11,462 nucleotides of DNA from Deltaproteobacteria bacterium (GTDB lineage: Bacteria; Desulfobacterota; Desulfovibrionia; Desulfovibrionales; Desulfovibrionaceae): the NCBI GenBank assembly GCA_031253875.1, contig JAIRVN010000013.1, positions 1 through 11,462 on the forward strand. The letters are read 5' to 3'. The notes beneath the pieces were generated by a model, which did no database searches, had not been told where the DNA came from, and worked only from the letters and a program-made list of their open reading frames with translations. Position numbers and translations under genes: made by a program. Positions 185 to 7,566 of the stretch are shown piece by piece (position 1 is the first letter of the stretch; each line of letters opens with the position of its first letter).

Positions 185-760
185 TCAATGCTTTTCTATA
201 TAACGCAGGGAGTGCGGATCAATGTATATGAGCTGTCCCTGGCGTATCTCCGCAGTATTGGTGACGAATTCATGTTTCCCGATACGTTGGACGGCTTCAG
301 GCTCATGGCTTGCGTCATACAGGCGCAGGCTGCTGTCTTCCAGATGACTTATGGTGCTCCAGTGGCGGTTGACGGGCGGGTCTTCCGGCAGCAGATAACG
401 AAAAAAGCGGAACACTACCGCACGGCGCGGGCTTCCGTCCAGCCAGGAATGAATGGCCTGCCAGGTTTCCTCCGGATCGGGCGTACAGGCGCCTTCCCCA
501 GGCTGCGGGAAAGGCGCCTGCACGCGCATGGGATAATTGAAGGAATGCACCTGCAACATGGCGTCCACCAGGGGAATATAGTCGGTCTGCTGGTCGAGCA
601 CGGCTTTGAAGGCGTCTTTGTTGTCAGCCAGGGCCAGCAGGGTTTCGTGGAGAATCTCCCTGGCCTTGAGCGCCCGCAGTCCGTGAGTCAGGCGCATAGC
701 GTTGAGCACCGCGTATATGGCGCAAAAGACGTCGAGTTTGCCCTGGTAAAATGGTTTCAT
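185..760 (-). CDS. Papain-like (clan CA/C39-like) cysteine hydrolase
   Basis: A 191-residue soluble protein with no signal peptide or membrane helix, so probably cytoplasmic. The N-terminus YQGKLDVFCAIYAVLNAMR places a Gln (Q6) seven residues before a Cys (C13) that starts a hydrophobic helix. This is the oxyanion-hole/nucleophile layout of papain-fold and C39-like enzymes. Further on, RHWSTISHL (H133) and LRLYDAS (D149) supply the expected His and Asp on adjacent strands. All four catalytic-type residues are therefore present and the enzyme looks intact. It may be a protease, a transglutaminase-like enzyme or an acyltransferase; the sequence cannot decide. It is the last gene of the minus-strand cluster, 64 bases after the small GTPase gene, with a poor Shine-Dalgarno sequence (A-rich leader). 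Position next to the GTPase suggests the same pathway, possibly processing a partner. Confidence 0.65.
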   Translation of the reverse strand: MKPFYQGKLDVFCAIYAVLNAMRLTHGLRALKAREILHETLLALADNKDAFKAVLDQQTDYIPLVDAMLQVHSFNYPMRVQAPFPQPGEGACTPDPEETWQAIHSWLDGSPRRAVVFRFFRYLLPEDPPVNRHWSTISHLEDSSLRLYDASHEPEAVQRIGKHEFVTNTAEIRQGQLIYIDPHSLRYIEKH

Positions 761-824
761 GGTTTTTTTGTTTGCCTGCTCTTTCGAGGGGGCTCATTCA
801 TACCACCGCCTCGGACGGCGGCAG

Positions 825-1325
825 CTACTTTTCCTGCAGCATGGCCTCGGCCAGCCTGATAAAGGCATCCTCGACGCCTTCGCCCGTTTTGGCGCTTGTT
901 CTCAGCACCTGTATATCTTGCAGTTCAAGGCGCGCAATATCATCCTCCGTCACCTGCCAATCCGGGAGCAAATCCGCTTTGTTCAACAGCAGACAATGGG
1001 GCACATTGCCGATAACATCAAGGGCAAGCAGGCGAATGAGCAGCGCCGTATTCAGCGTGTCCTTGCGCGTGCCGTCGGCAACAAGGAAAAACCCCATAGC
1101 GCCGCGCAGATAGGAAACATTGATCTCATTGTATTCGTCCTTGCCCGCCATATCCCACAGCACCAGGTTGACGTCCTGTTCTCCCACGCGGCATTCTTTT
1201 TTGCTGATTTTCACTCCCAGGGTAGACAGATAACGATCCGAAAAAATCGAATGCACATATTGCTCGACAAGAGAGGTTTTGCCGACCGCAAAAGTTCCAA
1301 GCATGCAGATTTTCTTACTTACCAT
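825..1325 (-). CDS. Ras/Rab-like small GTPase with Lys in place of the catalytic Gln
   Basis: A 166-residue single-domain GTPase. All nucleotide-binding motifs are visible: P-loop GTFAVGKT (10-17), a switch I Thr (T35, in STLGV), DMAG (58-61), NKAD (115-118) and TSAK (143-146). Its Rab-like spacing and WDMAGKDE segment place it among bacterial Ras-like GTPases related to MglA and the 'Rup' groups. After DxxG the usual Gln61 equivalent is Lys (K62), so intrinsic hydrolysis should be slow or depend on a GAP-like partner. There is no C-terminal Cys for lipidation and no membrane helix, so it is cytosolic unless recruited. I chose the start at 1325 because GGAG lies five bases upstream; the in-frame ATG at 1349 has no ribosome binding site. 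The gene lies between the sensor kinase and the cysteine hydrolase, and the roadblock-like region of the OmpA protein is its most likely local partner. Confidence 0.88.
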   Translation of the reverse strand: MVSKKICMLGTFAVGKTSLVEQYVHSIFSDRYLSTLGVKISKKECRVGEQDVNLVLWDMAGKDEYNEINVSYLRGAMGFFLVADGTRKDTLNTALLIRLLALDVIGNVPHCLLLNKADLLPDWQVTEDDIARLELQDIQVLRTSAKTGEGVEDAFIRLAEAMLQEK

Positions 1326-1330
1326 TTTCA

Positions 1331-1334
1331 CTCC
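1331..1334 (-). promoter_or_regulatory. Shine-Dalgarno site that sets the GTPase start
   Basis: GGAG on the minus strand, six bases from ATG at 1325 (GGAG-TGAAA-ATG). It supports the shorter 166-residue GTPase over the start at 1349. Confidence 0.6.
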
Positions 1335-1354
1335 GCACAACGCGTGCATTTGCC

Positions 1355-1370
1355 GCGATCCGACGATCGC
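1355..1370 (-). other. Small intergenic hairpin between kinase and GTPase genes
   Basis: A perfect 6-bp inverted repeat (GCGATC / GATCGC) around a four-base loop lies in the 58-base gap between the kinase stop and the GTPase start. No T run follows, so it is not an intrinsic terminator. It could mark RNA processing or simply be chance. Confidence 0.3.
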
Positions 1371-1383
1371 CTCCGGGTACGCA

Positions 1384-3276
1384 TCAGTAGGTCAAAAAGT
1401 GGTCGAAAGGCAACTGCAGGTGGAACATACTGCCTTTACCAACTTCGGACTCCACCCAGAGTCGGCCCTGCATCAATTCCGTCAGACGTTTGCTCAACGT
1501 CAGCCCCAAACCGGCGCCGCCGTACTGGCGCGTCATGCTCCCGTCGGCCTGGGTAAAACCCTCGAAAATACGTTCCAACTGTGTGGATTCAATGCCGATA
1601 CCGCTATCCTGCACCAAAAAATGTACGGAAACTTGGCGCTCATTTTCCGTTTCCGTCCGAACGTGCAGAGCAACCTGTCCCTGTTCTGTAAATTTTATCG
1701 CGTTATGCAGCAGATGGTGCAAGATCTGTCGCAAATGGGGCGCATCTCCCACAAGCATATCCGGCAACGCCGCATCAACGTGCATCTCAAACATCAGCCC
1801 TTTAGCTTCGGCGCGATCCTTCATGCCATCGTACAGCGAGCGCAGCAGCGAGCGCAGGCCGAACGGAACATTTTCCGTCTCCACAGCGCCCGTCTGCATC
1901 TTGGAGAAATCCATGATGTCATTGAACACTCCCAGCAGGCTCAACGTGGAACTATGAATTTTTTCAAGGTATCCTTTGAGTTTGGCAGAGGGATTTTGTT
2001 GCAGCGCCAGATGGCTCATGCCCAGTATGCCATTCATGGGCGTGCGTATTTCGTGGCTCATACGCGCCAGGAAATCGTTTTTCGCCTGATTCTCCTCTTC
2101 AGCCAAATGCCGTCTGGCAATATCTTGAGCACGGATTTGGAGAATGTCGCGCAGGCACGTTATCACAGTATTATACACAGCCACCAGCATTCGTATTTCT
2201 TCGTTCGTTGCGACAAGCGCAAGCCTGCTTTCCAGGTCCCCGCCGCTAAGACGAAGCGCCGCAGCGTTGAGGGCCTGCAGAGGGCGGGAAACCTCGCGCG
2301 CTATCAGGAAATACAGCACAAGAAACAGCAATATGGCGGTAAGGGCCAGGTATCCCACATTTGTATACAGCGAACGCGTCACGTCGCGAAGGACGATTTT
2401 TTCCGGCACAACGGCCAGCAGAGTCCATTCCGTGCTTTGCACCGGCGCATACGCAAGCCACAGCGCCCCTGCCCCTGACGTCGCATCCAGACGGATAACG
2501 CCCTCTCCGCCCTTGTGGAGCAAGGCATACGCGAGCTCTTCCAAATCCGCGCGTTTTTGCGTCTGGGCAAGGCTCACCAGCGTATGCTGCAAAATATATT
2601 CGGACTCGGGATGGGAAATAACCGTCCCCGTCTTGCTGATAAGCACGATAAAGCCGCCCGCCGTTTCCAGCGCGGCGAGTTTGGTCCTGATGTCTGCAAC
2701 GCGCGTATCGACCTTGAACACCCCGATAAATTCGTTATCCTGCGTAATAGGCGCGCTGAAACTGACAACAATGGCATCTTCCGCGCTGAAGTACGGATCC
2801 GTCCAGGCACTGGCGCCTGTCAGCTTGGGGATAAGAAACCAGTCAGCAAACTGGTAATCAAAGTTGTATTCCGGGTCAATAAACATGTGCCTCATGGCGT
2901 TGCCGGAAGCACGAAACGCACGCGGCGCAAAAAATTTCTTTTGCGCGTCAAAGCGGTATGTGTCGAAAGCAACCACCGTGCCGTACACAGACGGGTTTTC
3001 CCTGGCGATGGCGTCAAGCAGTGGAAAAAAATCTTCTTCCCCGGCGAAAATGCCGCGGGAAAACAGGGCGGACACGGTCCGCGCCGCCTGCGCAAGCGAT
3101 ACGAAATGTCCGTCGACTTGCGCCGCACGGCTCGCCGCCTGGTTGGACAGCACGGTTATGGCCGAGTCCACTGCACGCTGTTTGCCGACGGAGTATTCAT
3201 AGCCGATGAGCAAACCGTAGAGGATTATCAGCGGCAAGCCGATAATAGCCAGCATTTTCGTCCGCAAAGGCAGCAT
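1384..3276 (-). CDS. Membrane sensor histidine kinase (dCache - HAMP - HisKA - HATPase)
   Basis: About 630 residues. An N-terminal membrane helix (about 8-27) and a second one (about 308-327) flank a 270-residue periplasmic region with the double-Cache layout typical of small-ligand sensors (for example SAWTDPYF and [10 protein letters not shown]). A HAMP-like linker follows, then the phosphoacceptor helix [19 protein letters not shown] with His at about 409. The ATP-binding domain has an N box ([10 protein letters not shown]), [13 protein letters not shown] and GGAGLGL. It ends directly after this domain: no receiver or HPt domain is present, and no response regulator is encoded in the window. 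The start is ambiguous between ATG 3276 and an adjacent GTG at 3279, without a strong ribosome site. The stop of the upstream binding-protein gene is only about 12 bases away, so translational coupling is likely. Pairing with a periplasmic binding protein suggests that the protein presents ligand to this sensor. Confidence 0.92.
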
Positions 3277-3288
3277 CACGGCGGCGGC

Positions 3289-4326
3289 TCACTTGACCGG
3301 AACAGGCCGGAAGAGCGTTTCATAAGAGAGCTTGCTGACGTCACGGCCCTGCGACTTCAACGCATCGACAATAAAGTCATAATCTGCCCGGCGCAGTTGG
3401 CCCCAATCCGCCGGATCCGGTCCGACCCCGTGCGTGACAAGATCCTTGACAACCTGGAGCATCCAGCGTTGGTGGCCCCTGTTCGTTACTACCGAATTGG
3501 CCTTCGTATAGCGCAATACCGTATCCAGCGTTTCTTCCTCATGTGCGAAGGCGTAGGCCCAACCTTTGATAACCGCCGCGTTCACGGCGGCGCAGATATC
3601 CGGATGCTCGTCCCTGTAGCGGGACGTGGTGAAAAGCCCGTCTCCCACAAAATTCAGGCCTGCATCCGCGTAATGGAATTCCACGAGATCCTTTTTGCGT
3701 AATCCCCTCTCAAGCAAGGAATAGTATTCGTTGTAATACATTGCCTGTGATGCGTCCGCCGCGCCCTGAAGCATGGGCGCCAGACTGTTGCTGAGCGGGA
3801 AAACAGCCTTGGGTTTGATGGCAAAAGCCGCCAAAAACATTCTGAATTCCGAATCAAAATCCCCGCCCCAGGAAAGGAGCACCTTGCCCGTCAGATCTTC
3901 CGGCTTGGTGATGCCCCGGCCGGCCCTGGCCACCATCATGGTAGCGCTTTTCTGCATGTATTGCCCTATGTTGACCGGATCCAGCCCCTCGATCCTGCGT
4001 AAAAGGCCTGTGGCCAGCCAGGCGGTGGCAAATTCCACTTCTCCCGCGCACAGACGGTGTATCGGCTTGTCGCCGAGCTTGGACCAGAGAAGTTGTACTG
4101 TCGGCAGTCCTGCTGCGCGGAAAAAACCTTTCTCGTACGCCATGATGAAACCGGCGAACTGCGCCTGAGGCTGCCATTGCATAAGTACACGGACAGGGGG
4201 CTGTACATCCGCGCTGCTCCGGGTCTGAGCACGCGAATCCGGCGGCATGCAACAGACAAGAACGGCGATACACGCCATGCGCCACACGATGGAACACATC
4301 CGGCTCAAATGCGTCGCACGCCACAT
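3289..4326 (-). CDS. Periplasmic NMT1/THI5-like (SsuA-type) substrate-binding protein
   Basis: A 345-residue exported protein. Residues about 1-33 form a signal peptide: Arg-containing start, hydrophobic MACIAVLVC core and a plausible signal peptidase I site SRA/Q. There is no proper lipobox. The mature part starts VRVLMQWQPQAQFAGFIMAY and continues with YEKGFF, the classic first lobe of the NMT1/THI5-like family that binds taurine, alkanesulfonates, pyrimidine precursors and similar molecules. GKVLLSWGGDFDSEFRMFL and the C-terminal HPDICAAVNAAVIKGWAYA helix also fit. No ABC permease or ATPase is encoded nearby. The gene lies just upstream of a dCache kinase, so a sensory co-receptor role is more likely than transport. 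The ligand cannot be read from the sequence. The start is placed at ATG 4326 because GGAGG lies five bases upstream; an in-frame GTG at 4347 is less likely. Confidence 0.82.
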   Translation of the reverse strand: MWRATHLSRMCSIVWRMACIAVLVCCMPPDSRAQTRSSADVQPPVRVLMQWQPQAQFAGFIMAYEKGFFRAAGLPTVQLLWSKLGDKPIHRLCAGEVEFATAWLATGLLRRIEGLDPVNIGQYMQKSATMMVARAGRGITKPEDLTGKVLLSWGGDFDSEFRMFLAAFAIKPKAVFPLSNSLAPMLQGAADASQAMYYNEYYSLLERGLRKKDLVEFHYADAGLNFVGDGLFTTSRYRDEHPDICAAVNAAVIKGWAYAFAHEEETLDTVLRYTKANSVVTNRGHQRWMLQVVKDLVTHGVGPDPADWGQLRRADYDFIVDALKSQGRDVSKLSYETLFRPVPVK

Positions 4327-4331
4327 ACAAT

Positions 4332-4336
4332 CCTCC
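4332..4336 (-). promoter_or_regulatory. Strong Shine-Dalgarno site that sets the binding-protein start
   Basis: GGAGG on the minus strand, five bases before ATG 4326 (GGAGG-ATTGT-ATG). It favours 4326 over the GTG at 4347. Confidence 0.7.
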
Positions 4337-4358
4337 GGGCAGTTCACAGATATGCGTT

Positions 4359-4387
4359 ACATTACATGGCTTGCACGGCGTCCGCAA
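4359..4387 (-). promoter_or_regulatory. Candidate internal sigma70-type promoter before the binding-protein gene
   Basis: On the minus strand, TTGCGG (4382-4387) and TAATGT (4359-4364) are 17 bases apart, in the 82-base gap between the OmpA-protein stop and the binding-protein start. The palindrome TTGCATGCAA (4391-4400) lies next to the -35 box. The match is moderate. If real, it would let the binding protein, kinase, GTPase and hydrolase be expressed apart from the upstream genes. Confidence 0.35.
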
Positions 4388-4408
4388 CCCTTGCATGCAA
4401 CGGATTTT

Positions 4409-6304
4409 TTATCGCTCGTCGCTCGCCGGAGCTGTCTTTCCTGCAAGATCCAAGCTTGCTCTGGGCATCTGGGCCAGATGCACTTTCAATTCAATACGCC
4501 GGCTGCCCTGATCGCCTTCCCGTAAATTTTTGGCAGGTTCCGCATATTGCGCCCCCATGCCGTAAATCGTCAACGGAATGCTTGCTCCACGGGCATACAA
4601 CATGGCGGCCAGAGTTTTTGCCCGCTCCTGGCTCAATTCGTAATTGCGTTTTTCCTGGCCCAGGCTGTCCGCATGGCCGTACACGGTCACACTGACGCTT
4701 ACGCCCATGTCTTTGCCCAATCTTTCCAGCGCTACCAAATCTTCCACAAGCTGCAAAAGTTTCGGATGATCTGCAGGAACAGGCATATCCCTGCCCAAAG
4801 GGAATTTTACGGAAACGGACTCAATAGCCCGGACAAGCTCGTGCATTCGATACGCGCGCGGATCCTCAAGCTGCTTCATATCGAGCTGTTTTATGCCCGG
4901 CACTGAAAGCAGTTCCCGGCGGCTCTGTAAAATCCAGTCCATGGGCGCTGTGCCGGAAAGACGCAGGATGCCGCCCTCGGCTTGAAATTCCATCTGCACG
5001 GTCTTTGGGAGACGGATTGCTTTCTCTATCCGCCTGGTGACAATGGGCGCCACATACGACACAAAGGGCTCCCAGCGGATGTGGAAACTCGCAGGATCCA
5101 CCCCCTGTTCCCGCAGCACCTGTTCAATGGGTCTGGCAAGCTCATCCCGCATGCAGAACATTGTCCAGGGCAGGGACTCTGTCCTGTGGATGTCATATAC
5201 CACTATGCCCGGTTCGCTGTTGAGCGCGGCAATGCCGCGTTCCAATGCTCCGCGCGTTTGCGCCGCCTCCTGCGCATGCTGATGCTCCGTATAGCGCCAT
5301 GCCCCGATGGCGCCCACGACAGCTATGACAAACGCCACCGGCAACGCCTTTATCCACATCGGCAATGGCTTGTCGTCCTCAATCATCCGGGTGACAAGGC
5401 AGGCATCCAGATGCCGGCACGCAAGGCTGAAGGGCGTTGTATCGCCGTTGAAATTTGCCAGAGCGTCCGCATGTTCGAGGATTATGAGTTCGAGGGCCGA
5501 ACGCAGCTTGTCCCGGAAATCCGCCGGCGGCGCGCCCTGTACGACACAAGCCAGATACGCCTTTGCGGAGCGTTCCACAAAAATTGTGGCCTCGCCCATC
5601 TGCAGTGATTCCAGTTCGTCCTGCCGGGCGCCGCTGAAACAGTCCCGCACGAAATCCTGGATAGCTGTAAGCATTGCGGAAACCATGTCCGCGTCCTGTC
5701 CCGGGACATCTTCGTCCTGCACATGGGCAAGTACAAGCCCCGTAGCGCTGTGGATCAAAAAAATCTGCTCGACCCTGTACACCAGGGTATGCAGCAGAAC
5801 AACCTCGCTGAAGGGTTTGCCCGTGCGCAGGGCTTCCAGCCGCCAGCGCAATCCTTTCCAACTGAAGGACATCTCCAGCGTCTTGTGCAACCCCTGAAGC
5901 ATGGTGCGAAAACTTTCCGCGATGGAGCGCCGGATTGCCGGTCCCATCAGCGGAAAAAGCACCGAGGTGAAATCCAGGGGATTCCTGCGCAGCGCGCCTT
6001 TGACGATTTCTTCGACTACAGGCTCAAGCGCCTTGCCCAGCCTGTCATCTTTGCCGGCGCGGAGCAGCACCGCCTCCGCAACAACCGTACTCACTTCGCG
6101 CGCGCGAAGAGCAGGATCGTCCAGGCGTTTCCTGATATCTTCAAGCAGGCTCAGCTCTGTTCCGAAAAGAAGCTCGCGCAGCGCGCCAAATTCTGTCTTG
6201 TCGGATACGGCTGCGACAGAAGGGACTTCGCAGGCCGCGTGCAAACGCGCCGCTTCAGAAGAAACAGCAGTATCGCGTTCAGGCATCCGGCGCGCCAGGC
6301 TCAT
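4409..6304 (-). CDS. Trans-envelope OmpA-domain protein with cytoplasmic roadblock/LC7-like region
   Basis: About 631 residues in four parts. (i) Cytoplasmic residues 1-317: a helical segment opening with ALRELLFGTELSLLEDIRKR (41-60), then a beta-beta-alpha-beta-beta-beta-alpha stretch (about 175-285; IFLIHSATGLVLAHV, DMVSAMLTAIQDFVRDCF, LESLQMGEATIFVE, AYLACVVQG) that matches the topology of roadblock/LC7 domains. (ii) One membrane helix at about 318-337. (iii) A periplasmic linker with a BON-like segment (about 424-480; RLSGTAPMDWIL, SVPGIKQLD). (iv) A C-terminal OmpA domain (about 490-610) with GHADSLG, NYELSQERAKTL and GSRRIEL, which carries the Asp and Arg used for peptidoglycan binding. 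It has no outer-membrane barrel. I recognise similar OmpA proteins beside small GTPases in other bacteria. The start overlaps the upstream gene by 26 bases; ATG 6286 is an alternative with an 8-base overlap. Neither has a clear ribosome site, which points to translational coupling. Confidence 0.82.
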   Translation of the reverse strand: MSLARRMPERDTAVSSEAARLHAACEVPSVAAVSDKTEFGALRELLFGTELSLLEDIRKRLDDPALRAREVSTVVAEAVLLRAGKDDRLGKALEPVVEEIVKGALRRNPLDFTSVLFPLMGPAIRRSIAESFRTMLQGLHKTLEMSFSWKGLRWRLEALRTGKPFSEVVLLHTLVYRVEQIFLIHSATGLVLAHVQDEDVPGQDADMVSAMLTAIQDFVRDCFSGARQDELESLQMGEATIFVERSAKAYLACVVQGAPPADFRDKLRSALELIILEHADALANFNGDTTPFSLACRHLDACLVTRMIEDDKPLPMWIKALPVAFVIAVVGAIGAWRYTEHQHAQEAAQTRGALERGIAALNSEPGIVVYDIHRTESLPWTMFCMRDELARPIEQVLREQGVDPASFHIRWEPFVSYVAPIVTRRIEKAIRLPKTVQMEFQAEGGILRLSGTAPMDWILQSRRELLSVPGIKQLDMKQLEDPRAYRMHELVRAIESVSVKFPLGRDMPVPADHPKLLQLVEDLVALERLGKDMGVSVSVTVYGHADSLGQEKRNYELSQERAKTLAAMLYARGASIPLTIYGMGAQYAEPAKNLREGDQGSRRIELKVHLAQMPRASLDLAGKTAPASDER

Positions 6305-6962
6305 TCAGCAGCATGTGTCCAAACTCGCCGCTCCACTGATTGCTCAGTTTGACGGCCACGTCATTAAACAAGCCGGACAAGGAACTGCGGTAGACCATGT
6401 CATGCCGGATCTGGGCGGCTGTACTGGCAAGGACCTCCAGAGTATCCCGGTACTTCTCCTCGACCTTGTCGGACAGGCTGCTGCTTTCGGTAAGCAGCAA
6501 CTGGCGCAGTTCCCGCTCCGTGGCGTCCAGCACGCCGGACAGCTTGGTCAGTTTGCGTTCAAAGCCTTCCACCGCCGCAGCCAGATCCTTGGCGAGTTGC
6601 GCAAACGCGTCCGCCCGCTCGCGCTGTTCGTTTTTCAGCCCTTCGTTCCGCTCTCGTTGCTCATTTTTCAGGGCTTCAGAACGCTCACGCTGTTCATTCT
6701 TTATTTCACTGTCGCGTTCCGCGCCTTCCGCCTTGATACGATGCATGAGAGAGGCGTTCTCGCTCTTCATAAAATTTTCCAAGGAATCAAGGCGTTTTTT
6801 TAACGCATCACGAGCATCGTTGATCTCGCGCGTAAAACGTTCTTCCTGACGCTGGAAACGCGTTTCCAGATCCTTCAACTGCGCGCCGAACAGGATATCC
6901 CGGACCTGTTCCATCGAAGAAGCCTCTATCGGATGTGGCGCTTCATTGGGACGTTTGCTCAT
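6279..6962 (-). CDS. Soluble coiled-coil protein with hendecad repeats
   Basis: 227 residues, strongly charged, with no signal peptide or membrane helix. An N-terminal motif MEQVRDILFGAQLKDLETRF (17-36) is followed by a long coiled coil (about 30-185). Inside it, an 11-residue unit is repeated four times (77-120; three near-identical copies beginning KNEQRER). The C-terminal cap contains YRSSLSGLFNDVAVKLSNQW. Its N-terminal motif resembles the one at the start of the neighbouring OmpA protein. The gene overlaps the OmpA-protein gene and begins 37 bases after the flavoprotein gene. Its start is supported by GGAG five bases before ATG 6962. I do not recognise a named family. An elongated scaffold that links the OmpA protein and the GTPase is an inference from context. 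Confidence 0.8.
   Translation of the reverse strand: MSKRPNEAPHPIEASSMEQVRDILFGAQLKDLETRFQRQEERFTREINDARDALKKRLDSLENFMKSENASLMHRIKAEGAERDSEIKNEQRERSEALKNEQRERNEGLKNEQRERADAFAQLAKDLAAAVEGFERKLTKLSGVLDATERELRQLLLTESSSLSDKVEEKYRDTLEVLASTAAQIRHDMVYRSSLSGLFNDVAVKLSNQWSGEFGHMLLNEPGAPDA
6603..6734 (-). repeat. Tandem 33-bp repeats encoding 11-residue coiled-coil units
   Basis: Four in-frame 33-bp units. Three (6603-6701, residues 88-120) encode KNEQRERSEAL, KNEQRERNEGL and KNEQRERADAF. The fourth (6702-6734) is degenerate, KAEGAERDSEI. Third-position differences between the copies show that the protein pattern is conserved beyond recent DNA duplication. Confidence 0.85.
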
Positions 6963-6999: not shown

Positions 7000-7566
7000 T
7001 CAACACAGCTTCCGCATCAGCCAGGCCATCTGTTCGCCCAGCTTTTCCATTGTACGCATGCCCTCGGCATCTTCTCTGACCGCGCCCGGCTCCAGGCCGT
7101 ACCCCATATTCCAATAATTGGACATGGGCACTATCATTTCATTGATGCCGAAAAAAGCCATCAACGTATTGTACACCTGTATGGCGCCGCCGCGGCGGGC
7201 AGCCACCACGGGGGCGCCCACCTTACGGGCCAGCATTTTTGTCGCCACGCAGGAATAGCCGGCTCGGTCAATCAGGGCTTTCATCTCTGTCGTGACATTG
7301 GCGAAATATGTGGGAGACGCGAGAACAATGGCGTCCGCAGCAAGCATCCGCGCGATCCATTCGTTCATGGGATCCTCGGTTTGCGCGCAACGGCCGGGAT
7401 GTTCGCGGCATTTGCCGCAGGCCAGGCAGCCGCGCACCGCCACGCCGCCGACGCAAATTTCTTCGCACGTGATGCCCGCCGCTTCCAACGGCCCGAACAG
7501 GCGTGTGAGCATATGATGCGTATTGCCGTCTTTGCGCGGACTGCCGTTATATGCCGTCAAATGCAT
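7000..7566 (-). CDS. Flavodoxin-fold NAD(P)H:FMN reductase / iron-sulfur flavoprotein-like
   Basis: 188 residues. GSPRKDGNTHHML (8-20) is the FMN-phosphate loop of the NADPH-dependent FMN reductase family. SPTYFANVTTEMKALIDR is the second flavin-contacting segment, and VGAPVVAARRGG follows the third strand. Residues C47, C50, C53 and C60 form a compact C-x2-C-x2-C-x6-C motif (in RGCLACGKCREHPGRC), as in iron-sulfur flavoproteins (Isf), where it binds a [4Fe-4S] cluster. Such proteins are common in strict anaerobes and move electrons between ferredoxin-type carriers and flavin. The start at 7566 has a strong AAGGAGG just upstream, and the gene has a good promoter at 7704-7732. It is the first gene of the minus-strand run, 37 bases from the coiled-coil gene with no terminator between. 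A functional link with the later genes is not evident. Confidence 0.85.
   Translation of the reverse strand: MHLTAYNGSPRKDGNTHHMLTRLFGPLEAAGITCEEICVGGVAVRGCLACGKCREHPGRCAQTEDPMNEWIARMLAADAIVLASPTYFANVTTEMKALIDRAGYSCVATKMLARKVGAPVVAARRGGAIQVYNTLMAFFGINEMIVPMSNYWNMGYGLEPGAVREDAEGMRTMEKLGEQMAWLMRKLC

Follow-up and report, generated by a model that had tools for sequence, protein, structure and literature searches.

The window, by which we mean the whole 11,462-nucleotide stretch of contig JAIRVN010000013.1 analysed here, derives from a Desulfovibrionaceae genome that is 58% complete and distributed over 259 contigs. Across positions 185-6962 its minus strand presents six open reading frames (ORFs), all intact, which encode in order a coiled-coil protein, an OmpA-family protein, a periplasmic binding protein, a histidine kinase, a small GTPase and a papain-fold hydrolase. 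A sequence-only reading had taken these genes as one signalling cassette, with overlaps or gaps of at most 82 bases, in which ligand binding would act through the kinase and the GTPase on the hydrolase. The ORFs were confirmed, and the junctions between the longest ORFs, from the coiled-coil gene to the hydrolase gene, are -26, +61, +9, +34 and +64 bases, the largest gap thus being 64 bases; the fourth, between kinase and GTPase, is 58 bases if the GTPase begins at its conserved start, 1325. The limit of six genes, however, is arbitrary because an FMN reductase gene (7000-7566) lies on the same strand 37 bases upstream of the coiled-coil gene, making this a run of seven. Short gaps and a shared strand are by themselves commonplace in bacteria, and scans for promoters and terminators returned about as many sites as shuffled sequence. 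Inside this wider gene run the sequence-only reading had nevertheless found a real conserved module.

The conservation of the GTPase, the coiled-coil protein and the OmpA protein as a unit is supported by the gene neighbourhoods read at 40 GTPase loci, one of them that of the window. Searches with the GTPase were positive in 15 of 395 genomes of the phylum (E 1e-20) and in 24 of 288 genomes of the family (E 1e-25). At 25 of the 40 loci (25 of 39 without the window) genes for the coiled-coil protein, the OmpA protein, the GTPase and an output enzyme follow one another in that order; two further loci (L135 and L139) fit the order but end at contig edges, and at another (L060) all four genes lie within 6 kb with the GTPase on the opposite strand. 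Eight loci hold the GTPase and output genes without an adjacent OmpA gene, three of them ending less than 400 bases upstream, two carry remote GTPases without the gene set (L063, and L064, whose 3.4 kb contig also bears a coiled-coil fragment), and two are from the window's genus (the window and L123). The GTPase gene adjoins the output gene at 34 of the 40 loci. The OmpA protein, present in 3 of 199 genomes of the order, was sought elsewhere in the eight genomes lacking an adjacent copy and was located on another contig in five (G577, G451, G644, G645 and G653). The output genes encode a diguanylate cyclase or an HD-domain protein with a common N-terminal domain, as seen by alignment and, for three of them, by a check of the domains. 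By eye this N-terminal domain appears PAS-like, and it had no Pfam match in the three proteins scanned. Two records titled Betaproteobacteria and Gastranaerophilales (L078 and L072) bear Desulfovibrionaceae-like genes of this kind, perhaps because they were misbinned; both the OmpA frame and the cyclase frame of L072 are broken in two.

This gene set is that of the Group 1 Rup neighbourhood, predicted computationally in 2014 by Wuichet and Sogaard-Andersen (PMC4316618) and composed of a coiled-coil protein, a protein with a conserved domain, a transmembrane segment and an OmpA domain, and an output module. According to that paper no Group 1 Rup member had then been experimentally characterized, and searches of the open literature returned no experimental work on the module later than the 2014 prediction. 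The earlier statement that no characterized system holds the full set is thus correct for the six genes, whereas the core had already been described computationally.

The GTPase (825..1325, minus strand; ORF 825-1349) is read as Rup-type from an alignment and matches Pfam Ras (PF00071) at E=3.2e-29. Against chains of the PDB its profile scores best with Rab23 (2.4e-34), with Rab1, Rab10 and Rab8 close behind. In an alignment of 21 rows, 20 of them distinct (L074 and L135 are identical in sequence) and all from Rup-type loci, the glutamine of the G3 motif is missing in 20, being present only in L055; in the window the motif reads WDMAGKD. This loss is in keeping with a partner that donates a residue for catalysis. 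Residue 68 of the same motif (numbered from ORF 825-1349) is glutamate in 19 of the 21 rows (18 of 20 distinct), including the sister species, glutamine in L060 and alanine in the window. The tyrosine of switch I is retained in all 21 rows and is followed by leucine in 20 and isoleucine in one. Over 162 codons the window and sister GTPases differ by 0.077 nonsynonymous (dN) and 0.81 synonymous (dS) substitutions per site, a dN/dS of about 0.09, and the corresponding values for the C-terminal part of the OmpA protein are 0.138 and 0.63 over 319 codons, a dN/dS of about 0.22; both genes are under purifying selection.

The coiled-coil protein (227 amino acids; 6279..6962, minus strand) was assigned to the module from a family alignment of 23 rows, and its gene adjoins the OmpA gene in most Rup loci; it has no Pfam match above the cut-off. 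It contains about three copies of an 11-residue EQRER-type repeat (about 6609-6707), the copy number differing between relatives. An N-terminal motif common to the coiled-coil and OmpA proteins was considered and set aside as weak (probability 2.9%).

The OmpA-family protein (631 amino acids; 4409..6304, minus strand) is predicted to consist of a helical N-terminus, a cytoplasmic longin domain (residues 175-307; 5384..5782), one transmembrane segment (residues 313-338; 5291..5368), a periplasmic part and an OmpA-like peptidoglycan-binding domain (about residues 493-610; 4475..4828), which matches PF00691 at E=2e-7. The transmembrane segment is placed by hydropathy and largely coincides with the start of a long helix (316-363) of the model. 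Homologues of the OmpA protein in close relatives (P0122-P0134) are 70-82% identical. Structure models were made for this protein and for the hydrolase. In the AlphaFold2 model of the OmpA protein residues 174-302 are folded as two strands, a helix, three strands and two helices, which is the order of a longin domain. A fold search with the cytoplasmic region listed longin entries, Mon1-Ccz1 and Fuzzy-Inturned among them, and one COPI chain; no roadblock entry was among the 50 matches listed, a result with which a roadblock domain is still compatible. The Robl_LC7 profile matched only 2 of 74 members of the OmpA family, at E 0.13 or worse. The cytoplasmic domain is therefore predicted to be of the longin/roadblock type and better described as longin. 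The OmpA domain and the presence of such a cytoplasmic region had been recognized from the sequence, and the name then given to it, roadblock-like, was nearly right.

The two genes between OmpA and GTPase look like neighbours of the module. The binding protein (NMT1/THI5 type; 3289..4347, minus strand) matches NMT1, and the kinase (1384..3279, minus strand) has dCache, HAMP, HisKA and HATPase domains; with the Ras match of the GTPase, these Pfam assignments bear out the identities first given to the three proteins. Relatives of the binding protein occur in 88 of the 288 family genomes (E 1e-20) and lie within 6 kb at none of the 39 other GTPase loci; those of the kinase do so at two (L134 and L140), never between OmpA and GTPase. 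A co-occurrence of binding protein and GTPase was rejected, as both are found in 2 of the 288 genomes against 7.3 expected. At all 17 binding-protein loci fetched (L146-L162, each from a different one of the 88 genomes and chosen from the better matches) the next gene encodes a dCache-HAMP sensor with a SpoIIE phosphatase end; in the window the sensor gene likewise follows the binding-protein gene directly, but its dCache-HAMP part leads into a histidine kinase. The binding protein and kinase are thus best read from their gene context as the two halves of a sensor cassette of its own, and the NMT1/dCache-HAMP-SpoIIE cassette may merit separate study. The window kinase was also weighed as a candidate for the Rup output kinase described in 2014 and rejected, there being no match to the output N-terminal domain (probability 0.4%).

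The hydrolase (185..760, minus strand), which we do not count in the module, has no Pfam match. That it is papain-like, as first proposed, is supported by a confident structure model together with VIA-align. An alignment of 60 sequences shows no variation at Q6, C13, H133 and D149, and the modelled protein presents a papain fold with this Gln, Cys, His and Asp set; with Foldseek alone no match reached E 0.001, the best being at E 0.02 (probability 0.98). Relatives occur in 57 of 199 order genomes and in 17 of the 23 other Rup-positive family genomes (four strong, E below 1e-40; 13 remote, E 5e-25 to 4e-12). Its candidacy as a Rup effector was rejected given that wide distribution, compared with the 3 of 199 of the OmpA protein, and its distance from the GTPase gene in every one of the 17 Rup-positive genomes with a match. 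In two of four relatives read it adjoins panC-like and metK-like genes. Co-occurrence of the GTPase, coiled-coil, OmpA and hydrolase families had been named as a check of the cassette; the first three do occur together, with the output gene, at the 25 other loci described above, but the hydrolase lies within 6 kb at none of the 39, several of which end at contig edges. The proposed six-gene route from ligand through kinase and GTPase to hydrolase is not supported, and none of these loci shares it.

The window is an odd member of the family. No output gene with the Rup N-terminal domain lies at its locus, which makes the module incomplete, and its OmpA and GTPase genes are separated by two genes. 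In the other genome of the genus, G577, which is 64% complete and whose GTPase is 86% identical to that of the window, the GTPase gene is followed directly by a gene of the metallo-beta-lactamase fold, lactonase-like by eye (L123, 752-1531), and further downstream by an alcohol-dehydrogenase-like gene (by eye); the contig shows no kinase in the 206 bases upstream and no hydrolase in the 2.4 kb downstream. The OmpA gene of G577 is on a separate contig, followed by what by eye are glycogen-metabolism-like genes and not by the binding-protein/kinase pair, and this incomplete genome contains no match to the binding protein or the hydrolase. A profile of the output N-terminal domain found nothing in either genus genome, a search made without a positive control, and a single-sequence search for the output enzyme in the genus matched only its GGDEF half.

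We consider it probable, though far from assured, that the core is a variant Group 1 Rup module with a wall-anchored longin platform for a Rab-like GTPase, and that the sensor pair and the hydrolase are neighbours. The OmpA protein would hold peptidoglycan in the periplasm while presenting its longin domain to the cytoplasm and, with the coiled-coil protein, would form a platform holding the GTPase at the inner membrane. We infer that the GTPase is bound there by the longin domain, which would control its nucleotide state according to contact with the wall. Most other carriers encode next to the GTPase an enzyme of the cyclic di-GMP (c-di-GMP) type, on which the GTPase would then act through the N-terminal domain of the enzyme; in the window's genus this output enzyme is no longer linked. 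The sensor pair of the window, read as an independent cassette, lies between OmpA and GTPase, and an unrelated hydrolase follows the GTPase. Several observations weigh against this proposal. The longin assignment comes from one AlphaFold2 model, and a profile of the longin region found no longin among PDB sequences, giving one match at E=1.1. The switch-I tyrosine is followed by leucine or isoleucine in every GTPase row, which is not the residue that known tri-longin exchange requires. Five loci with more than 6 kb of upstream sequence have no OmpA gene adjacent to the GTPase, two of these being second copies (L144 in G653 and L145 in G643), and three of the eight genomes searched (G266, G642, which is 65% complete, and G648) gave no match to the OmpA protein. 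Finally, the output gene is missing from the window locus, and it could lie in the missing parts of the two incomplete genus genomes, for which there was no positive control.

It could be argued that the operon of this lineage acquired the binding protein and kinase as input to the GTPase, and that the hydrolase replaced the lost c-di-GMP-type enzyme as effector. The common strand, the short junctions, the placement of the pair precisely between the OmpA and GTPase genes, and the missing output gene are in keeping with this view. The arrangement, however, recurs in none of the 39 other loci, the sister species shows no kinase in the 206 bases before its GTPase and no hydrolase in the 2.4 kb after it, no pair after its OmpA gene and no match to binding protein or hydrolase elsewhere in what is available of its genome, the hydrolase keeps panC-like and metK-like company in half of the relatives read, and no Rup output domain is present in the kinase; we regard recruitment as distinctly unlikely. 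Decay of the module in the genus, with output lost, order broken and other genes drifting, is unlikely too: it would explain why neither genome yielded the output, why the sister OmpA and GTPase genes occupy separate contigs, each followed by unrelated genes, and why the window has alanine where nearly all GTPase rows have glutamate, but every window ORF is intact and the dN/dS values are low. Improbable in our judgement is the proposal that the cytoplasmic domain is a roadblock of the MglB type, a GTPase-activating partner as in MglAB. The two folds are related (PMC3521125, PMC10933270), Robl_LC7 has its two weak matches, and the missing G3 glutamine may call for a trans-acting residue, points that are countered by the two helices after the sheet in the model, in longin order, and by the longin entries and single COPI chain of the fold search, though these leave room for a roadblock.

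On the variant Rup reading, the 2014 survey is of particular relevance as it separated Rup GTPases from those coupled to MglB (roadblock) proteins without settling what regulates them (PMC4316618). If the OmpA partner does carry a longin domain, a candidate regulator has been in plain sight. We tentatively propose, as an idea somewhat more doubtful than the module itself, that bacteria possess their own Rab-longin system, in which a Rab-like GTPase would be regulated by a longin domain connected across the membrane with peptidoglycan and, in most of the carriers analysed, with c-di-GMP-type enzymes, a bacterial counterpart of the longin-type Rab regulators that has been rewired in the window's genus. 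Such a pairing in bacteria, the point here that deserves attention, would bear on the origin of the same pairing in eukaryotic membrane traffic. A longin-related fold in bacteria is not new as such, since a table in PMC4917890 lists Longin/Roadblock jointly as present there; in the parts available, the literature examined (including PMC4316618, PMC12383261, PMC5216073, PMC10933270, PMC3521125, PMC4917890 and PMC7159879) assigns no longin to the Rup neighbourhood.

Among known systems, the actinobacterial conservon (CvnA-D) also brings a GTPase and a histidine kinase into one gene cluster, but the window has no significant roadblock match and a different gene set; by inspection, the C-terminal end of its kinase lacks the conservon LPxR motif. 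In MglA/MglB, too, a bacterial Ras-like GTPase works with a protein of related fold, whereas the best PDB sequence matches of the window GTPase are Rabs, Robl_LC7 is not significant and the partner protein also carries a membrane segment and an OmpA domain. The tri-longin complexes Mon1-Ccz1 and Fuzzy-Inturned, like the window, couple longin to a Rab-like GTPase, and among PDB chains the window GTPase matches Rab23 best. They require in their substrates a switch-I tyrosine followed by a basic residue (PMC12383261; PMC5216073), the motif being Tyr then Lys or Arg (PMC12383261). The window system is bacterial and peptidoglycan-anchored, shows one longin domain rather than three and lacks the basic residue, so that the known exchange mechanism would not apply; the longin may instead serve as a platform, use another exchange mechanism or promote hydrolysis. 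Closest is the Group 1 Rup module (PMC4316618), from which the window differs in having no linked output gene with the common N-terminal domain and in the inserted binding protein and kinase. The two share a Rab-like GTPase without the G3 glutamine, a coiled-coil protein and an OmpA protein with a conserved cytoplasmic domain and one transmembrane segment; what the Group 1 description left as a 'domain of unknown function' is, on the present prediction, a longin domain.
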